Below, piece after piece: positions 24,759 to 33,700 of a stretch of DNA of 64,000 nt; position 1 is the first letter of the stretch, and each line of letters starts with the position of its first letter. Source of the DNA: Streptomyces zhihengii. Its GTDB lineage: Bacteria > Actinomycetota > Actinomycetes > Streptomycetales > Streptomycetaceae. The position numbers were made by a program, and so were the translations under genes. The stretch lies in assembly GCF_016919245.1 (NCBI RefSeq), contig NZ_JAFEJA010000002.1, positions 932,501 to 996,500 of the forward strand. The letters are read 5' to 3'. The notes beneath the pieces were generated by a model. It made no database searches. It was given only the letters and a program-made list of their open reading frames with translations, and was not told the DNA's origin.

Positions 24759-25655
24759 TCAGGCGGCGGCGGGCGTGTAGTGCGGCGCCTCGTCGCCCTC
24801 GATCACCGTGCTGGTCCGCCCGTCCGTGCCGACCGGGACGTCACCGGCGACCGTCACCCGGTGCAGCAGGCGCGGCAGGTCGCCGTAGTCGTCGGGCGCG
24901 TAGTGCTGGGTGATGCGGTTGTCGAACAGCACCAGGTCGCCCGGCGCCCACGTCCAGCGCACCACGTTCTCCGGGCGGGTCACGTACGACTGGAGGATGC
25001 GCAGGATGTCCCGCGACTCCGACGCCGACAGGCCGACCAGCGACTGGGCGAACCCGCCGATGAACAGGCCCCGTTCCCCCGACTCCGGATGCACCCGCAC
25101 CACCGGGTGCTCGGTGCGGTAGCGGGTGGACACGAAGCGCCGCCGGTGCTCGGCCGCCTTCTCGCTGCGCGGTTCCGCGTAGTCGTAGGCGTTGGTGTGC
25201 ACCGCCCGCAGCCGGTCGGCGAACGCGCGCAGCGGCTCCGGCAGGTCCTGGTAGGCCGCCGCCGAGTTGGCGATCAGCGTGTTGCCGCCGTACGGGGGGA
25301 CGACCAGGCTGCGCAGCGTCGTCGCCTTCGGCGGGGTGCGCACGAAGGTGACGTCCGTGTGCCAGTGGTTGGAGCGGACGCCCTCGTCGCCGTCGACCGG
25401 CAGGATCTGCGGCTGCCCCTCGACCGAGGGGACCGTCGGATGGGCGCCCGTCAGCGGGCCGAACAGCGACGCGAAGCGGAGCTGGGCCGCGTCGTCGAGC
25501 CGCTGCCCCCGGAAGAACAGCGCCTTGTGCTCGACGAGCGCCGCGTTGATCTCGGAGACGATGCCGGGGTCGAGTTCCTGCGAGATGTCGACGCCGAGGA
25601 TCTCCGCGCCGATGCGGCCGCCGACGCGGCGTATGTCGAAACCGGTGGTGGTCAT
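24759..25655 (-). CDS. TauD/TfdA-family Fe(II)/2-oxoglutarate dioxygenase
   Basis: A 298-residue dioxygenase of the taurine/alkylsulfatase group. The iron triad is H99 and D101 in HWHTDVTF and H251 in RITQHYAPDDY, with a 2-oxoglutarate-binding arginine in PRLLHRVTV. Enzymes of this group release sulfite or sulfate from taurine, alkylsulfonates or alkyl sulfates. It is the last gene of the sulfonate operon that begins near 30546. A 136-base spacer with short direct repeats separates it from the flavin monooxygenase gene. The exact substrate is not predictable. Confidence 0.9.
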   Translation of the reverse strand: MTTTGFDIRRVGGRIGAEILGVDISQELDPGIVSEINAALVEHKALFFRGQRLDDAAQLRFASLFGPLTGAHPTVPSVEGQPQILPVDGDEGVRSNHWHTDVTFVRTPPKATTLRSLVVPPYGGNTLIANSAAAYQDLPEPLRAFADRLRAVHTNAYDYAEPRSEKAAEHRRRFVSTRYRTEHPVVRVHPESGERGLFIGGFAQSLVGLSASESRDILRILQSYVTRPENVVRWTWAPGDLVLFDNRITQHYAPDDYGDLPRLLHRVTVAGDVPVGTDGRTSTVIEGDEAPHYTPAAA

Positions 25656-25791: not shown

Positions 25792-27126
25792 TCAGGCGGC
25801 CGGCGCGGAACGGCCGGCGGGCCGCTCCAGGCCGTAGTGGTCGCGCAGGGTGCGCCCCACGTACTCGGTGCGGAACAGCCCCCGGCGCTGGAGCAGGGGC
25901 ACGACGTGGTCGACGAAGTCCTCCAGACCGCCCGGCAGATGCGGCGGCATGATGTTGAAGCCGTCCGCGGCGCCGGAGGTGAACCACTCCTCCAGCTGGT
26001 CCGCGATCTGCTCCGGCGTCCCGGCGAAGACCCGGTGCCCCCGGCCGCCGCCGAGACGGGCGATCAGCTCCCGGATCGTGAGCCGCTCCCGCCGCGCGAG
26101 GTCGGCGACGAGCGTGAACCGCGACTTGTTGCCGTTGATGGCGCTCTCGCCCGGCAGTTCGGGCAGCGGGCCGTCCAGCGGCAGGCCGGTGAGGTCGGTG
26201 CCGAGCATCCCCGACAACTGCTGGAGCCCGTACTCCGGCACCTGGAGGGCGGTGAGCTCGGCCTCCAGGGCACGGGCCTCCGCCTCCGTCGCACCGATCA
26301 CGGGGCAGATCCCGGGGAGGATCCTCACCTCGTCGGGCCGCCGGCCGTGGCGGGCGAGCCGGGACTTGAGGTCCTTGTAGAAGGTCTGCCCGTCGGCCAG
26401 CGTCTGCTGGGCGGTGAACACGGCCTCCGCGTAGCGGGCCGCGAACTCCCTGCCGTCCTCCGACGACCCTGCCTGCACCAGCAGCGGGTGCCCCTGCGGC
26501 GGGCGCTGCACGTTCAGCGGCCCGTCCACCCGGAAGTGGGCGCCCCGGTGGCCGACGGGCGCGACCGCGCCCTCCTCCGTGTACACGCCGCGGGCCCGGT
26601 CGACGACGGGCGCGCCGTCGGTCCAGCTGTCCCACAGCAGCCGCGCCACGTCGACGAACTCGGCCGCCCGCTCGTAGCGCAGCGCGTGGTCCGGGTGCTC
26701 GTCGAGCCCGAAGTTGCGGGCCTCGGCGACATTGCCCGAGGTCACGATGTTCCAGCCGGCCCGGCCGCCGCTGAGGTGGTCGAGCGAGGCGAACTTGCGG
26801 GCCACATGGTAGGGCTCGTTGAAGGTGGTGGACACGGTGGCGATCAGACCGATGTGCTCGGTCGCCACCGCGAGGGCCGACAGCAGTGTCAGGGGCTCGA
26901 AGCCGCCGACCGCGTTGTGGCGGGCGTTGCTCCACAGGGTGAGCCCGTCGGCGAGGAACAGCGAGTCCAGCCGCCCCCGTTCGGCCGTCCGGGCCAGCTC
27001 CTGGAAGTACGTCAGGTCGGTGACCCGTTCCGGCTGGGTGCGCGGATGGCGCCAGGCTGCGTCGTGATGGCCGGCGTTCATCAGGAAGGCGTTGAGATGG
27101 AACTGTCGCGGCGGATGCGCGGGCAT
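25792..27126 (-). CDS. FMN-dependent monooxygenase, NtaA/SnaA/DszA family
   Basis: A 444-residue flavin monooxygenase of the luciferase-like (LLM) superfamily. The start QFHLNAFLMNAGHHDAAWRHP and the region ARKFASLDHLSGGRAGWNIVTS are typical of the long NtaA/SnaA/DszA/SoxA branch. This branch uses reduced FMN from a separate reductase and includes DszA, which opens dibenzothiophene sulfone. It is longer than SsuD alkanesulfonate monooxygenase (about 380 residues). It begins ten bases after the permease stop, so it is inside the sulfonate operon. No flavin reductase is encoded nearby. Confidence 0.9.
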   Translation of the reverse strand: MPAHPPRQFHLNAFLMNAGHHDAAWRHPRTQPERVTDLTYFQELARTAERGRLDSLFLADGLTLWSNARHNAVGGFEPLTLLSALAVATEHIGLIATVSTTFNEPYHVARKFASLDHLSGGRAGWNIVTSGNVAEARNFGLDEHPDHALRYERAAEFVDVARLLWDSWTDGAPVVDRARGVYTEEGAVAPVGHRGAHFRVDGPLNVQRPPQGHPLLVQAGSSEDGREFAARYAEAVFTAQQTLADGQTFYKDLKSRLARHGRRPDEVRILPGICPVIGATEAEARALEAELTALQVPEYGLQQLSGMLGTDLTGLPLDGPLPELPGESAINGNKSRFTLVADLARRERLTIRELIARLGGGRGHRVFAGTPEQIADQLEEWFTSGAADGFNIMPPHLPGGLEDFVDHVVPLLQRRGLFRTEYVGRTLRDHYGLERPAGRSAPAA

Positions 27127-27135
27127 GGCGGGTCC

Positions 27136-28023
27136 TCAGATTCCGGTAGGGGTGCGCCACGACGTGAAACGCCGTTCCAGGGCGACCAGGAGCTGGTTGA
27201 ACGTGACCCCGATCGCGGAGATCGTGATGATCCCCGCGTACATCTCGGGGATGGCGAAGTTGAACTGCGAGGCGTTGACCAGGTAGCCGAGTCCGGCCTT
27301 GGCGCCGACCATCTCGGCGGCGACGAGCACCAGGATCGCCACCGCGCCCGCCAGCCGGATGCCGGTGAACACCGACGGCACGGACGCCGGCAGGATCACC
27401 TTCTGGAAGATCCGGTGCGCCGGCAGGTCCATCGACCGGGCCAGCCGCAGCAGGGTCGGATCCACGCTGCGCACGGCGCTGATCGTGTTCAGCAGCACCG
27501 GCCAGGTGCACGCGTAGAGCACGATCGACACCTTCGACGTCTCGCCGATCCCCAGCAGCAGCACGAAGACGGGCAGCAGGGCGAGGGCGGCCGTGTTGCG
27601 GAACACCTCCAGCAGCGGGCCGAGCAGGTCGGCGACCCGGCGGTACCAGCCGATCAGCAGGCCCAGCGGCACGGCCACGGCCACCGCGAGGCCGAAGCCG
27701 GCCAGCGAGCGGCCGAGGCTCGCCCAGGTGTGCTCGGCCAGCGAGCCGTCCCGCGCCAGCCCCCACCAGGCCGAGGCGACGTCGGAGAACGGCGGCAGGA
27801 AGGTGGCGTCCACCAGGCCGAGCCGGGGCGCGGTCTCCCAGAGCCCCAGCAGGGCCAGCACGGCCACGCTGCGGGTGGCGGCCGTGGCCAGGGCCCGGCC
27901 GGCCCGGCGCGGCAGGGACGGCGCCCCGGAACCGGCCGCCGGGGACGGGGGAGCGGGTGGCGCGGGCGCGGCGGGCGGTGCCTGCTCGCGGCCGGGGGTC
28001 TTCTCGGTGACGGTGCTGGTCAT
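27136..28023 (-). CDS. ABC transporter permease, SsuC/TauC type
   Basis: A 295-residue inner-membrane permease of the binding-protein-dependent nitrate/sulfonate/taurine family. About 40 Pro/Ala-rich cytoplasmic residues precede six membrane segments. The coupling loop is near LLRLARSMDLPAHRIFQKVILPASVPSVFTGIRL. The start overlaps the ATPase stop as ATGA. It forms the membrane channel of the importer with the genes at 28020 and 28832. Confidence 0.93.
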   Translation of the reverse strand: MTSTVTEKTPGREQAPPAAPAPPAPPSPAAGSGAPSLPRRAGRALATAATRSVAVLALLGLWETAPRLGLVDATFLPPFSDVASAWWGLARDGSLAEHTWASLGRSLAGFGLAVAVAVPLGLLIGWYRRVADLLGPLLEVFRNTAALALLPVFVLLLGIGETSKVSIVLYACTWPVLLNTISAVRSVDPTLLRLARSMDLPAHRIFQKVILPASVPSVFTGIRLAGAVAILVLVAAEMVGAKAGLGYLVNASQFNFAIPEMYAGIITISAIGVTFNQLLVALERRFTSWRTPTGI

Positions 28024-28829
28024 GCCGCCGGCCTCTCCCTCTCCTGCTGCTGGGCGCGGGTGACCTCGTCGCGCAACAGGCTCCAGATCCGGTGGCGGTG
28101 ATGCGCGAACTCGGGCCGTGAGCGCGGGTCCTCGTCCGGCGACGCCTCGCCGAGGTCGATCGGCACCACCTCCTTGATGCGGCCGGGCCGCGAGGTGAGC
28201 ACCGCGACGCGCTGCCCGAGGCGCACCGCCTCGTCGATGCCGTGAGTGATGAACACGACGGTCTTGCCGGTGCGCCGCCAGATCCGCAGCAGCTCGTCCT
28301 GGAGCGACTCCCTGGTCTGGGCGTCGAGCGCGGCGAACGGCTCGTCCATCAGCAGGACGTCGGGGTCGTAGGCGAGGCTGCGGGCGATGGCGACGCGCTG
28401 GCGCATACCGCCGGACAGCTCGTGCGGATGCCGGTCCTCGAAGCCGGTGAGCCCCACCAGGGCCAGGTGGTCCCGTGCCCGGCCGGCCCGTTCCCGGCGC
28501 GGCACGCCGGTGGCCTCCAGGCCGAACTCCACATTGCCCTGCGCGGTGCGCCACGGCAGCAGCGCGTACTGCTGGAAGACGATGCCCCGGTCGAGACCCG
28601 GGCCGCGCACCGGCCTGCCGTCGAGCAGGATCTCGCCCGTCGTCGGCCGCGAGAGCCCGCCCAGCAGGTCGAGCAGGGTCGACTTGCCGCATCCGCTGGG
28701 GCCCACCACGACGGTGAACTCCCCGGCGGGGATGTCGAGGTCGATGCCGTCGAGCGCCACCGTGCCCGGCCCCCGGCCCCGGCCCGGGAACGTCTTGCCG
28801 ACGCCCCGGAAACTGATCTTCGCGGTCAT
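28020..28829 (-). CDS. ABC transporter ATPase, SsuB/TauB type
   Basis: A 269-residue ATP-binding subunit. Walker A is GPSGCGKST (residues 43-51), the signature is ELSGGMRQR and Walker B is VLLMDEPFAALD. It energises sulfonate-type import with the neighbouring permease and lipoprotein. The start lies two bases after the binding-protein stop codon. The spacing confirms one operon. Confidence 0.94.
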   Translation of the reverse strand: MTAKISFRGVGKTFPGRGRGPGTVALDGIDLDIPAGEFTVVVGPSGCGKSTLLDLLGGLSRPTTGEILLDGRPVRGPGLDRGIVFQQYALLPWRTAQGNVEFGLEATGVPRRERAGRARDHLALVGLTGFEDRHPHELSGGMRQRVAIARSLAYDPDVLLMDEPFAALDAQTRESLQDELLRIWRRTGKTVVFITHGIDEAVRLGQRVAVLTSRPGRIKEVVPIDLGEASPDEDPRSRPEFAHHRHRIWSLLRDEVTRAQQQERERPAA

Positions 28830-28831
28830 GG

Positions 28832-29854
28832 TCAGCCCTTCCTCGCGGCGCCGGCGCCGCCGTTGAACTCGTTGGTCCAGAGCTTCTTCAGGTCCACCGA
28901 GCCCCGCTCGATGTCGCCCCGCTCGGTGAGCCAGTCCGACCACACGGACAGCTCCCGTTCGTCGATCCGGCCGCCGGGAGCCGACACCCCGTAGGACCGC
29001 CAGTAGCGGAGCGCGTCCGTGCTCTCGTTGCGCTTCCGCCGGCGCACGACCTCGGTCATCCGCGCCACCACCTCGTCGCGCGGTGTGGCCCGCGACCAGT
29101 CCAGCGCCCGCCCCACCCCGGTGACGAAGGTGCGCACCGTCTCCGGGTTCTGCCGGATGAACCGCTCGGTGAGCACATACGTCCCGGCGCTGAAGGCGCC
29201 GCGCAGGTCGAAGTCGCTGAACAGCTTGCGGACGCCGCCGGTCTCCAGCGCCTTGTCGCGCAGGATGCCGCCGAGCACGGCCACGTCGATCTGCCCCCGG
29301 CGCAGCGTCTGTTCGGTGTTCACCGGCGGCACGACGATGCGTTCCACCTTCTGCGCCTCGGCGCGGCTCAGCCCGTGCTCGCGGAGGTAGATGTCGAGCA
29401 TCGCCTCGCTGTGGGCGCCGAGGGTGTTCATCCCGACCTTGCGGCCGATCAGATCGCGCGGGGTGCGCACGGGGCTGTCCTCGGTGACGTAGTAGCCGCT
29501 GTACGCGGCCTCGTCGGAGCCGTAGTAGCTGATGACGGCTCTGACGGGCGCGTCGCGGGAGGCGAGTTTGACGATGGCGCCGTTGAACGCGCCGCCGAAG
29601 TCGATCTGGCCCGAGGCCGCGGACTGGATGTCCTGCGGCCCGCTGATGGTGTTGCCGACCCAGTCGAGCTTCACGTCCTCCAGGTAGCCGAGCTCGGCGG
29701 CGAGTTCGGCCGGGGTGACCTGCCCGGCCCAGCCCTGGTAGCGCAGCTTCCCGGTGTTCCGCACCCCGCTGCCGCTCGCCGTGCCGCAGCCGGCGGCCGC
29801 GAGCGCGGACAGTCCGGTGAACGCGAGAAATGTGCGTCGTGATGTGGTGTGCAC
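28832..29854 (-). CDS. Tat-exported lipoprotein, sulfonate/nitrate-type solute-binding protein
   Basis: A 340-residue binding protein of the SsuA/NMT1 type. The N-terminus combines a Tat motif (SRRTFLAFTG) with a lipobox LAAAGC, so it is probably folded in the cytoplasm and then anchored outside. The body has DLIGRKVGMNTLGAHSEAML and QIDVAVLGG, typical of this class. GTG at 29854 follows AAAGGA. Upstream ATG choices would add low-complexity residues before the signal and are rejected. It is the first structural gene after the Cys-containing leader ORF. Confidence 0.92.
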   Translation of the reverse strand: MHTTSRRTFLAFTGLSALAAAGCGTASGSGVRNTGKLRYQGWAGQVTPAELAAELGYLEDVKLDWVGNTISGPQDIQSAASGQIDFGGAFNGAIVKLASRDAPVRAVISYYGSDEAAYSGYYVTEDSPVRTPRDLIGRKVGMNTLGAHSEAMLDIYLREHGLSRAEAQKVERIVVPPVNTEQTLRRGQIDVAVLGGILRDKALETGGVRKLFSDFDLRGAFSAGTYVLTERFIRQNPETVRTFVTGVGRALDWSRATPRDEVVARMTEVVRRRKRNESTDALRYWRSYGVSAPGGRIDERELSVWSDWLTERGDIERGSVDLKKLWTNEFNGGAGAARKG

Positions 29855-30402
29855 GTGGAATTCCTTTATTCGCTGCGCGGAGGGCAGGGGCGGAAAAGGC
29901 GTCGGAAATCGGCGGACGGAAAAGGGGGAATGCGCGCCCGGCGGTCCCGGCGCGGGACGCCGCGCCCGCCGCGCGGACACGGACGGTGCGGACGGCGGCC
30001 CGGCGCGGGGTGCGCCGCGAGGGACACGGGCGGGCGGCGGTCGAGGGAAGCCCGCCGGGCCGGCGGACACCGGCCGCGGGACGTCCCGCCGTCCGGCCGG
30101 CGGGACGGACCCGCCCTCGGCCCGCGTGCACCGCCCGCCCCGTGGACGGGGGGACCGTGGCGCCGCCTCGGGCTTCCGGCCGCGAGCCGTGAACAGTCGT
30201 GTGGCCAGGCCCGATACGGCCGGGAGCGCCGAACCGGGGCGGTGTGCGCGGAGGAGGGAGCGCCGGGGGCGGCGGCCGCGGTGACCCGGGAGCGGGCCGC
30301 CCGTACGAGCCGGGCCGCAAACGCGGAGCCGGGGGCGACGGAGGGAGTGCGTGGCCGTCGCCCGGCGGGCGTGTCCCGGCGGCTCAGCCGCTCAGGGGCG
30401 GC
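29855..30402 (-). other. 548-nt untranslated spacer between leader ORF and binding-protein gene
   Basis: No supported gene is present. The minus strand, which would be transcribed if the leader ORF and the transporter share an mRNA, is very GC-rich with many short inverted repeats. Long open frames on both strands are continuations of GC-biased frames without RBS or domains. A promoter for the transporter could lie inside; AT-richer DNA right before the GTG (29855-29890) is one place. Confidence 0.5.
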
Positions 30403-30403
30403 T
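30386..30403 (-). promoter_or_regulatory. hairpin overlapping the leader ORF stop codon
   Basis: AGCCGC and GCGGCT form a 6-bp stem with a six-base loop, starting at the last base of the leader stop codon on the minus strand. Additional GGCTGAGCC sequence follows and could extend or compete with it. Position suits an attenuator whose folding depends on ribosome progress. Confidence 0.4.
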
Positions 30404-30546
30404 CAGCGGCCGGCGGCACACAGCGCGCTGGCGAGGCGTCGCAGATCGACGTGCAGACGCGAAACGAGAATCTCGGCTTGACTCACGCTCAAGAGACTGG
30501 CAGCGAATTCCCGGTGCGTCAATATCGCAGGTAAAACGTCTCGCAT
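30403..30546 (-). CDS. putative Cys-containing leader peptide of the sulfur operon
   Basis: A 47-codon ORF missed by normal length filters. It ends in L-V-S-R-L-H-V-D-L-R-R-L-A-S-A-L-C followed by AAGR and stop. This matches the (S)-R-(R/L)-H-V-D-L-x-R-x-x-S-A-x-C signature of short 'putative leader peptides' that precede sulfur and cysteine assimilation genes in actinobacteria. A downstream sulfonate operon on the same strand supports the call. Codon 5 is TTA, the rare bldA-dependent codon. The start is uncertain: ATG 30546 lacks an RBS, and an internal GTG would give 27 residues. The conserved C-terminal part is the firm evidence. Confidence 0.75.
   Translation of the reverse strand: MRDVLPAILTHREFAASLLSVSQAEILVSRLHVDLRRLASALCAAGR
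30477..30493. promoter_or_regulatory. inverted repeat CTTGA-N7-TCAAG
   Basis: A perfect 5-bp inverted repeat with a 7-base centre lies inside the leader ORF, in an AT-richer island (30460-30590) between the divergent leader and glycosidase genes. It could be an operator, but no regulator is encoded adjacent. Confidence 0.3.
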
Positions 30547-30794
30547 CGTGAATTGTTGCAGATTTCTTGCGCCACCTTTCACTGCGTCAGCAGACGGAAC
30601 CGGGGCCCCTCACCGGCGTGGTGACCGGGCCCCCGCGGCCCGGTCCGCGCAAGATGCCAGGACGTCCATGGTCCCGACAGCCCCCGTTCCCCTCCGTGTT
30701 CCCCCCGCCCTCTGGTGCGTGCGCCCCCGCACCGGGATGCTGTCCGCCGACAGCGCTTACCACGAGCTCGACCAGCCGTATTCCGGGAGTAGTT

Positions 30795-33700
30795 GTGGGC
30801 CTTGGCAGAGCAAGACACACCGTCGTGCTGCTCGCGACCGTGACCGCCCTCGCGGTGGGCGCCGCCGCGCCGGCCGCCGCCGCCACACCCGATCCGCCGC
30901 CCCGGGAGAGCGCGGAGATACTGCGGCCGATCGCCCCGCCGCCCGCCACCGGCCCGGGGACCGGCTCCGCGGCGGTCGTCGACGGGACGGGCATCGAGAC
31001 CGCCCGCAGCGCACGGCCCGTCGCGCCCGGCGTACGGCTCACCTCCTACGACCGCCTCGAAGCCGCCAAGTGGCTGCGCGTCGACGAACTCTCCGTCGAC
31101 CTCGGCGGCGACGTCGCCACCGACTACCTGTCGTCCGGGAAGGTCGCCGACCGGCAGAGCGTCAGCGACCTCGCGGCCCGCCACGACGCGGGCGAGGGGC
31201 GGCGCACGGTCGCGGCGATCAACGCCGACTTCTTCGACATCAACCAGACCGGCGCACCGCTCGGCGCCGGCATCCGCGACGGCGAGCTCACCCACTCGCC
31301 GGGCTACGGCACCCACCGGGCCGTCGGCATCGGGCCGGGCGGCGCAGGGCGCGTGCTGGAGCTGTACTTCGAGGGCACCCTCACGCTCCCCTCCGGCCCC
31401 CACCCCCTCGGCGCCTACAACGCCGCGAACGTGCCCGCCGGCGGCATCGGCGCCTACACCTCGGCCTGGGGCGAGGCCGACCGCGCCCTCACCGTCGACG
31501 CCGCCTCGCCCGTCGCCGAGGCCGAGGTCCGCGACGGCCGGGTCGTCGCCGTCCACGACCGGCCCGGCACCGGCGCCGTCGCCGACGGCACCACCGTGCT
31601 CGTCGGCCGGGAGGCGGGCGCCGCCGCGCTCGCCGCGCTGGCCCCCGGGGACCCGGTCTCCCTCGCCTACCGGCCGCGCACCGACAGCGGCCCGGTGCCC
31701 CGCACGGCGGTCGGCGGACGCGAACTCCTCGTCGTCGACGGCGTGGCCCAGGACCACGAGGGCGAGGGCAACAACGCCACCGCGCCCCGCACCGCCGTCG
31801 GCTTCTCGGCGGACGGCCGCCGGATGCACGTCATCACCGTCGACGGCCGGCAGGCCGACAGCGGCGGCGTCACCCTCACCGAACTCGGCCTGATGATGCA
31901 GAAGGCCGGCGCGCACAACGCGCTCAACCTCGACGGCGGGGGCTCCTCCACGCTCGTCGCCCGCGAACCGGGCAGCGACGCCCTCCTCGTCGAGAACAGC
32001 CCCTCCGACGGCAGCGAACGCACCGTGCCCAACGGTCTCGCCCTCACCGTCCCGGACGGCAGCGGCCGGCTGCGCGGCTTCTGGGTCGAGACCGCGACGC
32101 CCGCCGCCACCGCGCCGACCGGCGACCCCGTGCTCGGCGGGCACCCCGACCGGGTGTTCCCCGGCCTCACCCGCCGGCTGACCGCCGCCGGCTTCGACGA
32201 GACCTACGGCCCCGCCGCCGGCACGCCCCGCTGGCACACCCGGGCCGCCTCCGTCGGGCGGGTCGACGGCGACGGCGTCTTCCACGCCCGCCGCACCGGC
32301 ACCACCGAGGCCGTCGCCGAGCGCGGCGCCGCCCGCGGCACCCTCCGCCTGTCCGTGCTCGGCGAACTCGACCGGATCGAACCGACCGTGCGCCGTGTCG
32401 CGCTCGGCGACTCCTCCGCCACCGGCACCTTCGGCGTCCTCGGCCACGACGCCCAGGGCAACAGCGCGCCCGTGGAGCCCGGGGACGTCACCCTCGACTA
32501 CGACCGCGCCCTGTTCGACATCCGCCCCGACGGGCGCGGCTCCTTCTCCGTCCTCGCCCGCACCGGCGGGCGCAGTGCCGGGCCGGTCACCGTGCGGGCC
32601 GGCGGCGAGACCACCGTCGTCGGTGTGACCGTCGGCCTCGCCGAGCAGGACGTGGCCGGCTTCGAAGACGCCGCCGCCTGGCGCTTCAGCCAGGCCCGCG
32701 CGAGCGGCTCGCTGGCCGCGACACCCGACGGGCACGAGGGCACCGGCCTCGAACTGACCTACGACTTCACCCAGTCCACCGGCACCCGCGCCGCCTACGC
32801 CGCCCCGCCGCAGCCCGTCGCCGTCCCCGGGCAGCCGCAGTCCTTCGCCCTGTGGATCAAGGGCGACGGCAACGGCGCCTGGCCCACCCTCCACCTCAAG
32901 GACGCCGCGGGCTCCGACCACCTGCTGCGCGGGCCGTACATCACCTGGACCGGCTGGCAGCAGGTCACCTTCCCCGTCCCGGCGGGCGCGGCGACCCCGC
33001 TGTCGGTGTTCCGCTTCTACCTCGCGGAGACGGCGGCCAACCGGCAGTACACCGGACGCATCGTCATCGACGGCCTGACCGCCCAGGTCCCGCCCGGTAT
33101 CGACCTGCCCGCCCCGCCCAGGGTCACCGACCCGCTGATCGACCCCGCCGCCGTCACCGGCGCCCGGGACTGGCGCTTCGCCGTGATGTCGGACGCCCAG
33201 TTCGTCGCCCGCGACCCGGACAGCGCGCTGGTGCGCCAGGCGCGCCGCACCCTGCGCGAGATCAGGGCCGCGGCGCCGGACTTCCTCGTCGTCAACGGGG
33301 ACCTCGTCGACGAGGGCGCCCCCGCCGACCTGGCCTTCGCCCGCCGCGTCCTCGAGGAGGAGCTCGGCGACGCCGTGCCCTGGTACTACGTGCCCGGCAA
33401 CCACGAGGTCATGGGCGGCCGGATCGGCGACTTCGTCACCGAGTTCGGCCCCGCGCAGCGCGTCTTCGACCACCGCGGCACCCGCTTCGTCACCCTCGAC
33501 ACCTCGTCGCTGAGCCTGCGCGGCGGCGGCATCGCCCAGATCAGGGAGCTGCGCGCCCAGCTCGACGCGGCCGCCGCCGACCCGGGGATCGGCTCGGTGA
33601 TGGTCGTCGAGCACGTGCCGCCGAGGGACCCGACCGTCCAGAAGGCGAGCCAGCTCGGCGATCGCAAGGAGGCCGCGCTGGTGGAGAACTGGCTGGCGGA

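Follow-up and report, generated by a model that had tools for sequence, protein, structure and literature searches.

A conserved UGU codon in a predicted leaderless leader ORF ahead of a Streptomyces sulfur-scavenging operon

Does a short open reading frame that precedes a set of organosulfur genes in Streptomyces zhihengii allow the cell to sense cysteine shortage, and does a TTA triplet in the same frame additionally place those genes under developmental control? Both had been proposed in a first-pass annotation of the 64,000-nt stretch of DNA analysed here (the window). The genes downstream are as that annotation described them, an importer and two oxygenases on the same (minus) strand as the short frame. 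They encode an SsuA/NMT1-like substrate-binding protein (28832..29854, GTG start, with AAAGGAA ahead of it), an ABC transporter ATPase (28020..28829), an ABC transporter permease (27136..28035, start approximate), an NtaA/DmoA-family FMN monooxygenase of the luciferase type (25792..27126) and a TauD/TfdA-type dioxygenase (24759..25655).

The minus-strand frame from 30546 to 30403 is present and translates as MRDVLPAILTHREFAASLLSVSQAEILVSRLHVDLRRLASALCAAGR followed by a stop. Submitted at three lengths, its C-terminal motif reached 32.7, 33.3 and 35.0 bits with the NCBIfam model NF042934 (putative leader peptide), for which the cut-off is 27 bits; the highest score belongs to the piece from codon 2 onward. 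A whole-genome scan with the same model returned the window leader at 33.3 bits (E 6.5e-7). The match to NF042936, the Ms4527A leader, was weak (14.9-17.3 bits) and fell below the cut-off of 45. NF042934 members are expected to be short ORFs that precede a sulfur gene on the same strand, and this is the arrangement found. Thus, the short cysteine-containing leader ORF claimed at first sight is real.

Its conservation was assessed using orthologues of the binding protein. At 65% identity or more, a search of 61 genus genomes yielded ten loci, one of them the window's own; a leader lay within 1.5 kb in three of the nine others, and these three were aligned with the window. A larger set consisted of the best 80 of at least 535 binding-protein loci in GTDB genomes. 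Among these best 80, a leader was present within 1.5 kb upstream in 47, decayed copies were found in two further loci (L061 and L077), and no leader was detectable in 31. The closest relative is L055, from Streptomyces sp. t39, whose binding protein is 95% identical; that of L056 is 81% identical. In both decayed copies the histidine of HVDL has been lost (RLIVEPRR and RLIVDLRR), and the motif cysteine is still TGT. The first-pass annotation had pointed to a leader family with the ending R-x-H-V-D-L...S-A-x-C before sulfur genes, and had staked its proposal on conservation of this C-terminal motif in related operons. The assignment was right and the motif is indeed conserved. The window and the 47 leader-bearing loci together make up the 48-locus alignment used below.

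The alignment places the start of the leader at GTG 30486-30484 on the minus strand, 20 codons 3' of the ATG chosen in the first-pass annotation. This GTG is aligned in 46 of the 48 loci; one locus has ATG and one, L066, an offset start. The leader ORF proper would therefore span 30403..30486 (minus strand), with 27 codons and a TGA stop, encoding MSQAEILVSRLHVDLRRLASALCAAGR, in which there is a single cysteine. Upstream of the GTG lies a predicted -35 box, TTGACG (30517..30522), whose TTGAC lies 35-37 nt before the start in 47 of the 48 loci and at -31 in L066, the locus with the offset start. A predicted -10 box, CAGTCT (30494..30499), follows at a distance of 17 nt and ends 7 nt before the GTG. 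CAGTCT shares just its A and T with NANNNT, and the A at -12 and T at -8 occur jointly in 37 of the 48 loci; a sigma-70 consensus scan of 29700-30900 returned no promoter site. In Streptomyces lividans, according to the available text of PMC8079986, promoters carry TAnnnT together with a weak nTGACn, and 17% of transcripts are leaderless. Since both the start and the promoter spacing are conserved across the 48 loci, we predict that the transcript starts at or next to GTG 30486, and that the 27-codon ORF is leaderless.

This start changes the standing of the TTA triplet. The triplet (30534-30532, minus strand) does lie in the frame 30546-30403, as had been claimed; it falls, however, outside the ORF opened by the conserved GTG, upstream of the -35 box and so outside the predicted transcript. 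The TTA of a bldA-dependent gene lies inside the translated frame, and given the predicted start this one does not. Over the 20 codons that precede the start, the window is the one locus of the 48 with an in-frame TTA; 12 of the 48 have an in-frame stop in this interval. Between the start codon and the stop, none of the 48 leaders contains a TTA. Read by eye, the alignment shows CCA in L055 where the window has TTA, and in L056 the frame of the same ATG meets a TGA before the leader. An upstream alignment of this kind had been suggested in the first-pass annotation to see whether the cysteine and TTA codons are kept: the cysteine codon is, as TGT in 48 of 48 loci, whereas the TTA is not.

The proposal that a 47-residue leader begins at ATG 30546, with the TTA conferring bldA dependence and the cysteine codon sensing cysteine, accordingly has to be weighed against this comparison. 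The frame is open from 30582 and has the TTA within it, the genome encodes a tRNA-Leu(TAA) of the bldA type, a loose -10 match (AACAAT) stands 5 nt before the ATG, and a crude start finder selected that ATG. The choice of the start finder is nevertheless outvoted by the 48 loci, with their single in-frame TTA and their upstream stops. Moreover, the ATG has no TTGAC at the right distance, which the GTG does have in all loci but the offset one, and it is part of a conserved motif that precedes the promoter. We regard such double control as very improbable. The bldA link was dropped because the TTA is upstream of the -35 box and peculiar to the window, and because the ATG falls within the upstream motif. 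If the predicted start is right, the combination of TTA and cysteine codons is a product of taking the wrong start, and the TTA plays no part. A false connection between sulfur scavenging and development is thereby avoided. The same trap occurs at L012 (C2:1381945) in the window's own genome, a weak family match before a Cys/Met PLP enzyme gene, in which, by eye, an in-frame TTA directly precedes the likely ATG at the place of the -10 box.

The motif that contains the rejected ATG occupies 30537..30553 (minus strand) and reads ATTCACGATGCGAGACG in the window and, for example, TTGAGAATATGAGACG in relatives. In the window and in relatives among L055-L130, motifs of this kind lie approximately 45-62 nt before the leader start, directly ahead of the -35 box; those of Streptomyces are like TTGAGAATATGAGACG, and a looser form, CCATGATGTGGGAC, occurs in Lentzea- and Saccharothrix-type relatives. 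The loose pattern TG[ACG]GA[CT] was found within -75 to -37 in 34 of the 48 loci, a count to which the window and L055 contribute through a different, later site. A motif of this type precedes 19 of 116 other family leaders, a raw count uncorrected for background. The motif is a possible operator for some regulator.

If the GTG-started ORF is translated, its peptide should bear the mark of selection. For 50 leaders of this operon type (the 48 and the two decayed copies), dN/dS was 0.25 over codons 10-23 and 0.76 over codons 2-9; when codons 10-23 were read in the two alternative frames, the values were 1.6 and 2.8. Departure from the majority base was 5%, 3% and 17% at codon positions 1, 2 and 3. 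The ratio of 0.25 against 1.6 and 2.8 supports translation of the C-terminal part of the leader under purifying selection. We see a very slim chance that the leader is a remnant that is conserved without having a function, or that it encodes a small protein that works in trans. Its function is putative, which leaves some room for such a reading; yet promoter geometry, start, motif and codon are all fixed, and family members precede sulfur genes of several kinds, in other genera as well as in Streptomyces.

Within the ORF, codons 12-17 contain a possible RNA hairpin, CGTCG-ATCTG-CGACG (30437..30451, minus strand), that includes a GAT and a CGA codon. Each of its five pairs is kept in 47 or 48 of the 48 loci, one pair being U-A in 45 and U-G in 3, and the core appears in the minimum-energy fold of 41 of the 48. 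As few as 3% of 1500 synonymous resamplings were as stable as the observed mean. There is almost no covariation, and other leader groups mostly have GAC, so that the hairpin would be specific to this operon type. The codons concerned are themselves unusual: GAT occurs in 42 and CGA in 45 of the 48 loci, against 6.4% and 4.3% in background ORFs. The feature could equally be a string of slow codons, and no part of the argument below depends on the hairpin.

The cysteine codon of the leader lies at 30418..30420 (minus strand). The TGT found throughout this operon type extends to the family: of 206 distinct leaders, 202 have TGT for the motif cysteine (48/48 of this type, 103/105 in the genus survey and 54/56 in the class survey), among which high-scoring members are over-represented since weaker genus matches, and those beyond the matches listed, were left out. 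In the same ORFs, other cysteine codons nearby, counted over an interval that begins at Arg(-3) and reaches 20 codons past the Val, comprised 43 TGT and 166 TGC (n=209); the difference from the motif position has a Fisher p of 2e-68 which, like every p-value given here, is uncorrected for kinship. As background we used 617 long ORFs from the 80 loci, chosen to have at least 200 codons and a third-position GC above 0.85, a choice that leans towards TGC; TGT makes up 9.8% of their 1559 cysteine codons. The rule holds within single peptides. One orthogroup has TGC at position 8 in 26/26 and TGT at position 10 in 26/26; another has TGC at position 3 in 27/28 and TGT at position 10 in 27/28. In two of the four UGC exceptions, UGU is found at another cysteine of the ORF.

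The 206 leaders were obtained by merging identical 66-nt stretches among 223. Before merging, this operon type contributed 48; a survey of 31 genus genomes gave 116, of which 105 are distinct, and the class gave 59, of which 56 are distinct. The genus survey, among the matches listed, took 80 further ones in listed order, 29 new loci and the 8 of the window's genome; the class set consists of 59 class loci with L140 added and L292, which has no cysteine at the motif place, removed. The searches and parsers for family leaders were blind to the cysteine codon. We did not find the UGU rule in the literature searched, in which coverage of subscription journals was thin.

Why should one synonymous codon be kept? 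A tRNA search of the genome returned 71 matches, 67 of them above the gathering score. ARAGORN named 66 of these 67, and the one left unnamed resembles tRNA-Gly(TCC) by eye. tRNA-Cys was found twice, both times with the anticodon GCA, and UGU would therefore be read by G-U wobble. In the available text of PMC9262613, wobble reading of the aspartate codon GAU is slow in Streptomyces for want of queuosine; by analogy, we infer that the wobble reading of UGU is slow too. Codon-choice theory of attenuators, as far as the available part of PMC1183508 sets it out, concerns codons read by different isoacceptors, and it does not predict the UGU rule because UGU and UGC share one tRNA. The wobble reason offered here would thus be our own extension of that theory.

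Taken together, these observations lead us to consider it probable that a leaderless leader of the NF042934 family makes the sulfur-scavenging operon answer to cysteine shortage through stalling at UGU. RNA polymerase would start at or beside GTG 30486, and a ribosome would load directly on the 5' end and translate the 27 codons. With cysteinyl-tRNA plentiful, the ribosome would reach the stop and most transcripts would not be productively expressed downstream. With cysteinyl-tRNA scarce, it would stall once UGU (30420-30418) had entered the A site, and the genes downstream would be expressed more strongly. UGU would be preferred to UGC since its reading by the GCA anticodon should be slower and more sensitive to starvation. 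Cysteine-responsive attenuation is, in our judgement, the best explanation for the leader, although the spacer that separates the leader stop from the binding-protein gene (29855..30402, minus strand) is, at 548 nt, long for a direct effect and counts against it, as do the 31 orthologous loci in which no leader was detectable.

The least certain part of this scheme is how a stall would be passed on. We prefer Rho-dependent early termination within the spacer, because this is a long stretch that apparently goes untranslated and has no terminator, and because the available text of PMC1262725 names Rho as one possibility for the mycobacterial cys leaders. No intrinsic terminator (a G+C-rich hairpin with a U run) was found in 29700-30900, and no Rfam cis-regulatory RNA matched at the gathering score in the window. 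The C-over-G skew expected for Rho was 0.22 in the spacers (n=43) and 0.18 in loci lacking the leader (n=31), an unclear difference (p 0.16). The length of the spacer varies among relatives. With the tblastn match, which begins a few codons within the gene, taken as its end, the nearest relative has 480 nt and L056 has 212; six loci of the Lentzea/Saccharothrix type have 46-138, and four others have 830-967. Nothing was identified in the extra sequence.

Alternatively, the stall might act by unmasking the ribosome-binding site (RBS) of the binding-protein gene, as in the mycobacterial case. Folding of 31 of the 48 loci, a weak test in GC-rich sequence, gave no support to a release of this site by a ribosome at UGU; mean accessibility was 0.313 with the ribosome stalled, 0.303 with it at the stop and 0.331 with the RNA free (p 0.26 and 0.16). 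Nor did duplexes between the region of the leader cysteine codon and the RBS exceed what composition yields (z -1.3 to 1.7 against 100 shuffles each).

The same tests bear on a different reason for keeping UGU, namely base pairing of its third position, a U, with an invariant site in the spacer or the RBS. A candidate partner of CUGU exists: ACAG was found near the start of the first gene in 32 of 47 leader-bearing loci and in 3 of 32 without an intact leader, two of those 3 being the decayed-leader loci (the count leaves out the window and L057). However, this difference follows clades, and it depends on start codons chosen by a rough criterion. In addition to the negative duplex and accessibility results, the bases beside UGU vary freely and a stop follows it directly in 12 leaders, which points to decoding rather than base pairing; the two UGC exceptions with UGU at another cysteine also speak against a fixed partner. 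We consider pairing improbable.

A more serious contender, though still an unlikely one, is arrest by the nascent peptide, in which R-x-H-V-D-L-x-R in the exit tunnel would hold the ribosome while cysteine or another sulfur signal set its release. In the 206 distinct family leaders, Arg(-3) is present in 206, Asp(+1) in 206 and Arg(+4) in 204, each written with several synonymous codons; these conservation figures, like that for the cysteine, are upper bounds because the parsers demanded Asp, Cys and partly Arg. Residues 6 to 13 before the cysteine show strong conservation although the codons that encode them vary synonymously and, together with the low dN/dS over codons 10-23, this favours a role for the peptide, since a plain hungry-codon sensor would not need conserved residues. 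To our knowledge, it is not usual for one synonymous codon to be fixed in an arrest peptide, and the near-universal UGU thus counts against arrest, as do the two loci that keep the ORF with the histidine lost, one of them also with Asp replaced by Glu.

In the genus sample, each of the 31 genomes has matches to NF042934 above the cut-off, and the number of matches at E ≤0.001 ranges from 3 to 13 per genome; in the class sample, 78 of 118 genomes have a match above the cut-off. The UGU rule was seen in both samples, 33 genus labels being represented in that of the class, as counted from locus labels. The window's genome has 8 members above the cut-off, the window's own included. Behind three of the above-cut-off members lie a sulfatase, a cysteine dioxygenase with a rhodanese, and a flavin reductase, in a downstream-gene count that leaves out L002 and L005-L007, likewise above the cut-off. 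The genes behind four weaker matches in the same genome encode a luciferase-like monooxygenase, a GST-like protein, a 2OG oxygenase and the Cys/Met PLP enzyme.

Two further arrangements were observed among relatives. L058, L059, L069, L073, L074, L083, L084, L086, L087 and other loci have an additional leader, of a different subtype (SRRHIDLGRTSSAIC and variants), 4.6-7.8 kb past the start of the binding-protein gene; two leader-controlled operons may stand close together there. In the class survey, L244, L246 and L247 carry runs of five or six cysteine codons (DLCRVAGCCCCCCSC) that mix TGT and TGC, with TGT at the motif position.

A bolder reading, which we put forward as speculation with little expectation that it is correct, is that the whole actinobacterial family is a two-key sulfur sensor: the peptide would position the ribosome, and UGU would read both the charging of tRNA-Cys and the quality of its decoding, for example through the sulfur-containing modification ms2i6A37. 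This modification is presumably carried by the tRNA-Cys in question, by analogy, and MiaA and MiaB, which make it, are encoded in this genome. Were it so, many sulfur operons per cell would be tuned together through one synonymous codon. The UGU rule has two more immediate uses: it makes wobble decoding as a cysteine sensor testable, and it provides an annotation rule for the family.

How does the leader compare with known systems? Polycysteine leaderless attenuators of mycobacteria were reportedly the subject of Canestrari 2020, and in such attenuators an mRNA structure hides the RBS unless the ribosome stalls. From the available text of PMC9031893, PMC13236596 and PMC9094748, the mycobacterial attenuators combine a leaderless short ORF, cysteine codons and sulfur operons. 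The present leader resembles them in its short ORF (leaderless by prediction here), in a cysteine near the end, in the sulfur operon downstream and in cysteine as the proposed signal. It differs in having one cysteine rather than a tract, in its long spacer, and in that folding lends no support to RBS release. The uORFC-8-2 attenuator of cysS in Rhodobacterales (available text of PMC8632094) is likewise a short ORF with cysteine codons before a cysteine-related gene, whereas there two cysteine codons stand in tandem, UGC dominates, and a U run is consistent with an intrinsic terminator. Candidate leaders of cys operons in Mycobacterium, Propionibacterium acnes and Bifidobacterium longum, described in the available part of PMC1262725, share with ours the cysteine codons, the lack of a terminator and Rho as one possibility suggested; those leaders contain runs of cysteine codons, unlike the one here, and this Streptomyces operon is not described in that part. 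The closest counterpart is NF042934 itself, recorded as cis_reg_atten. The window leader has the same C-terminal motif, above the curated cut-off and with no difference from it, in a short ORF before sulfur genes, and the function is putative by the name of the record. As a protein model NF042934 cannot hold the UGU rule. The leader is thus one more member of a known, predicted regulator family, and it is the UGU rule that merits attention.
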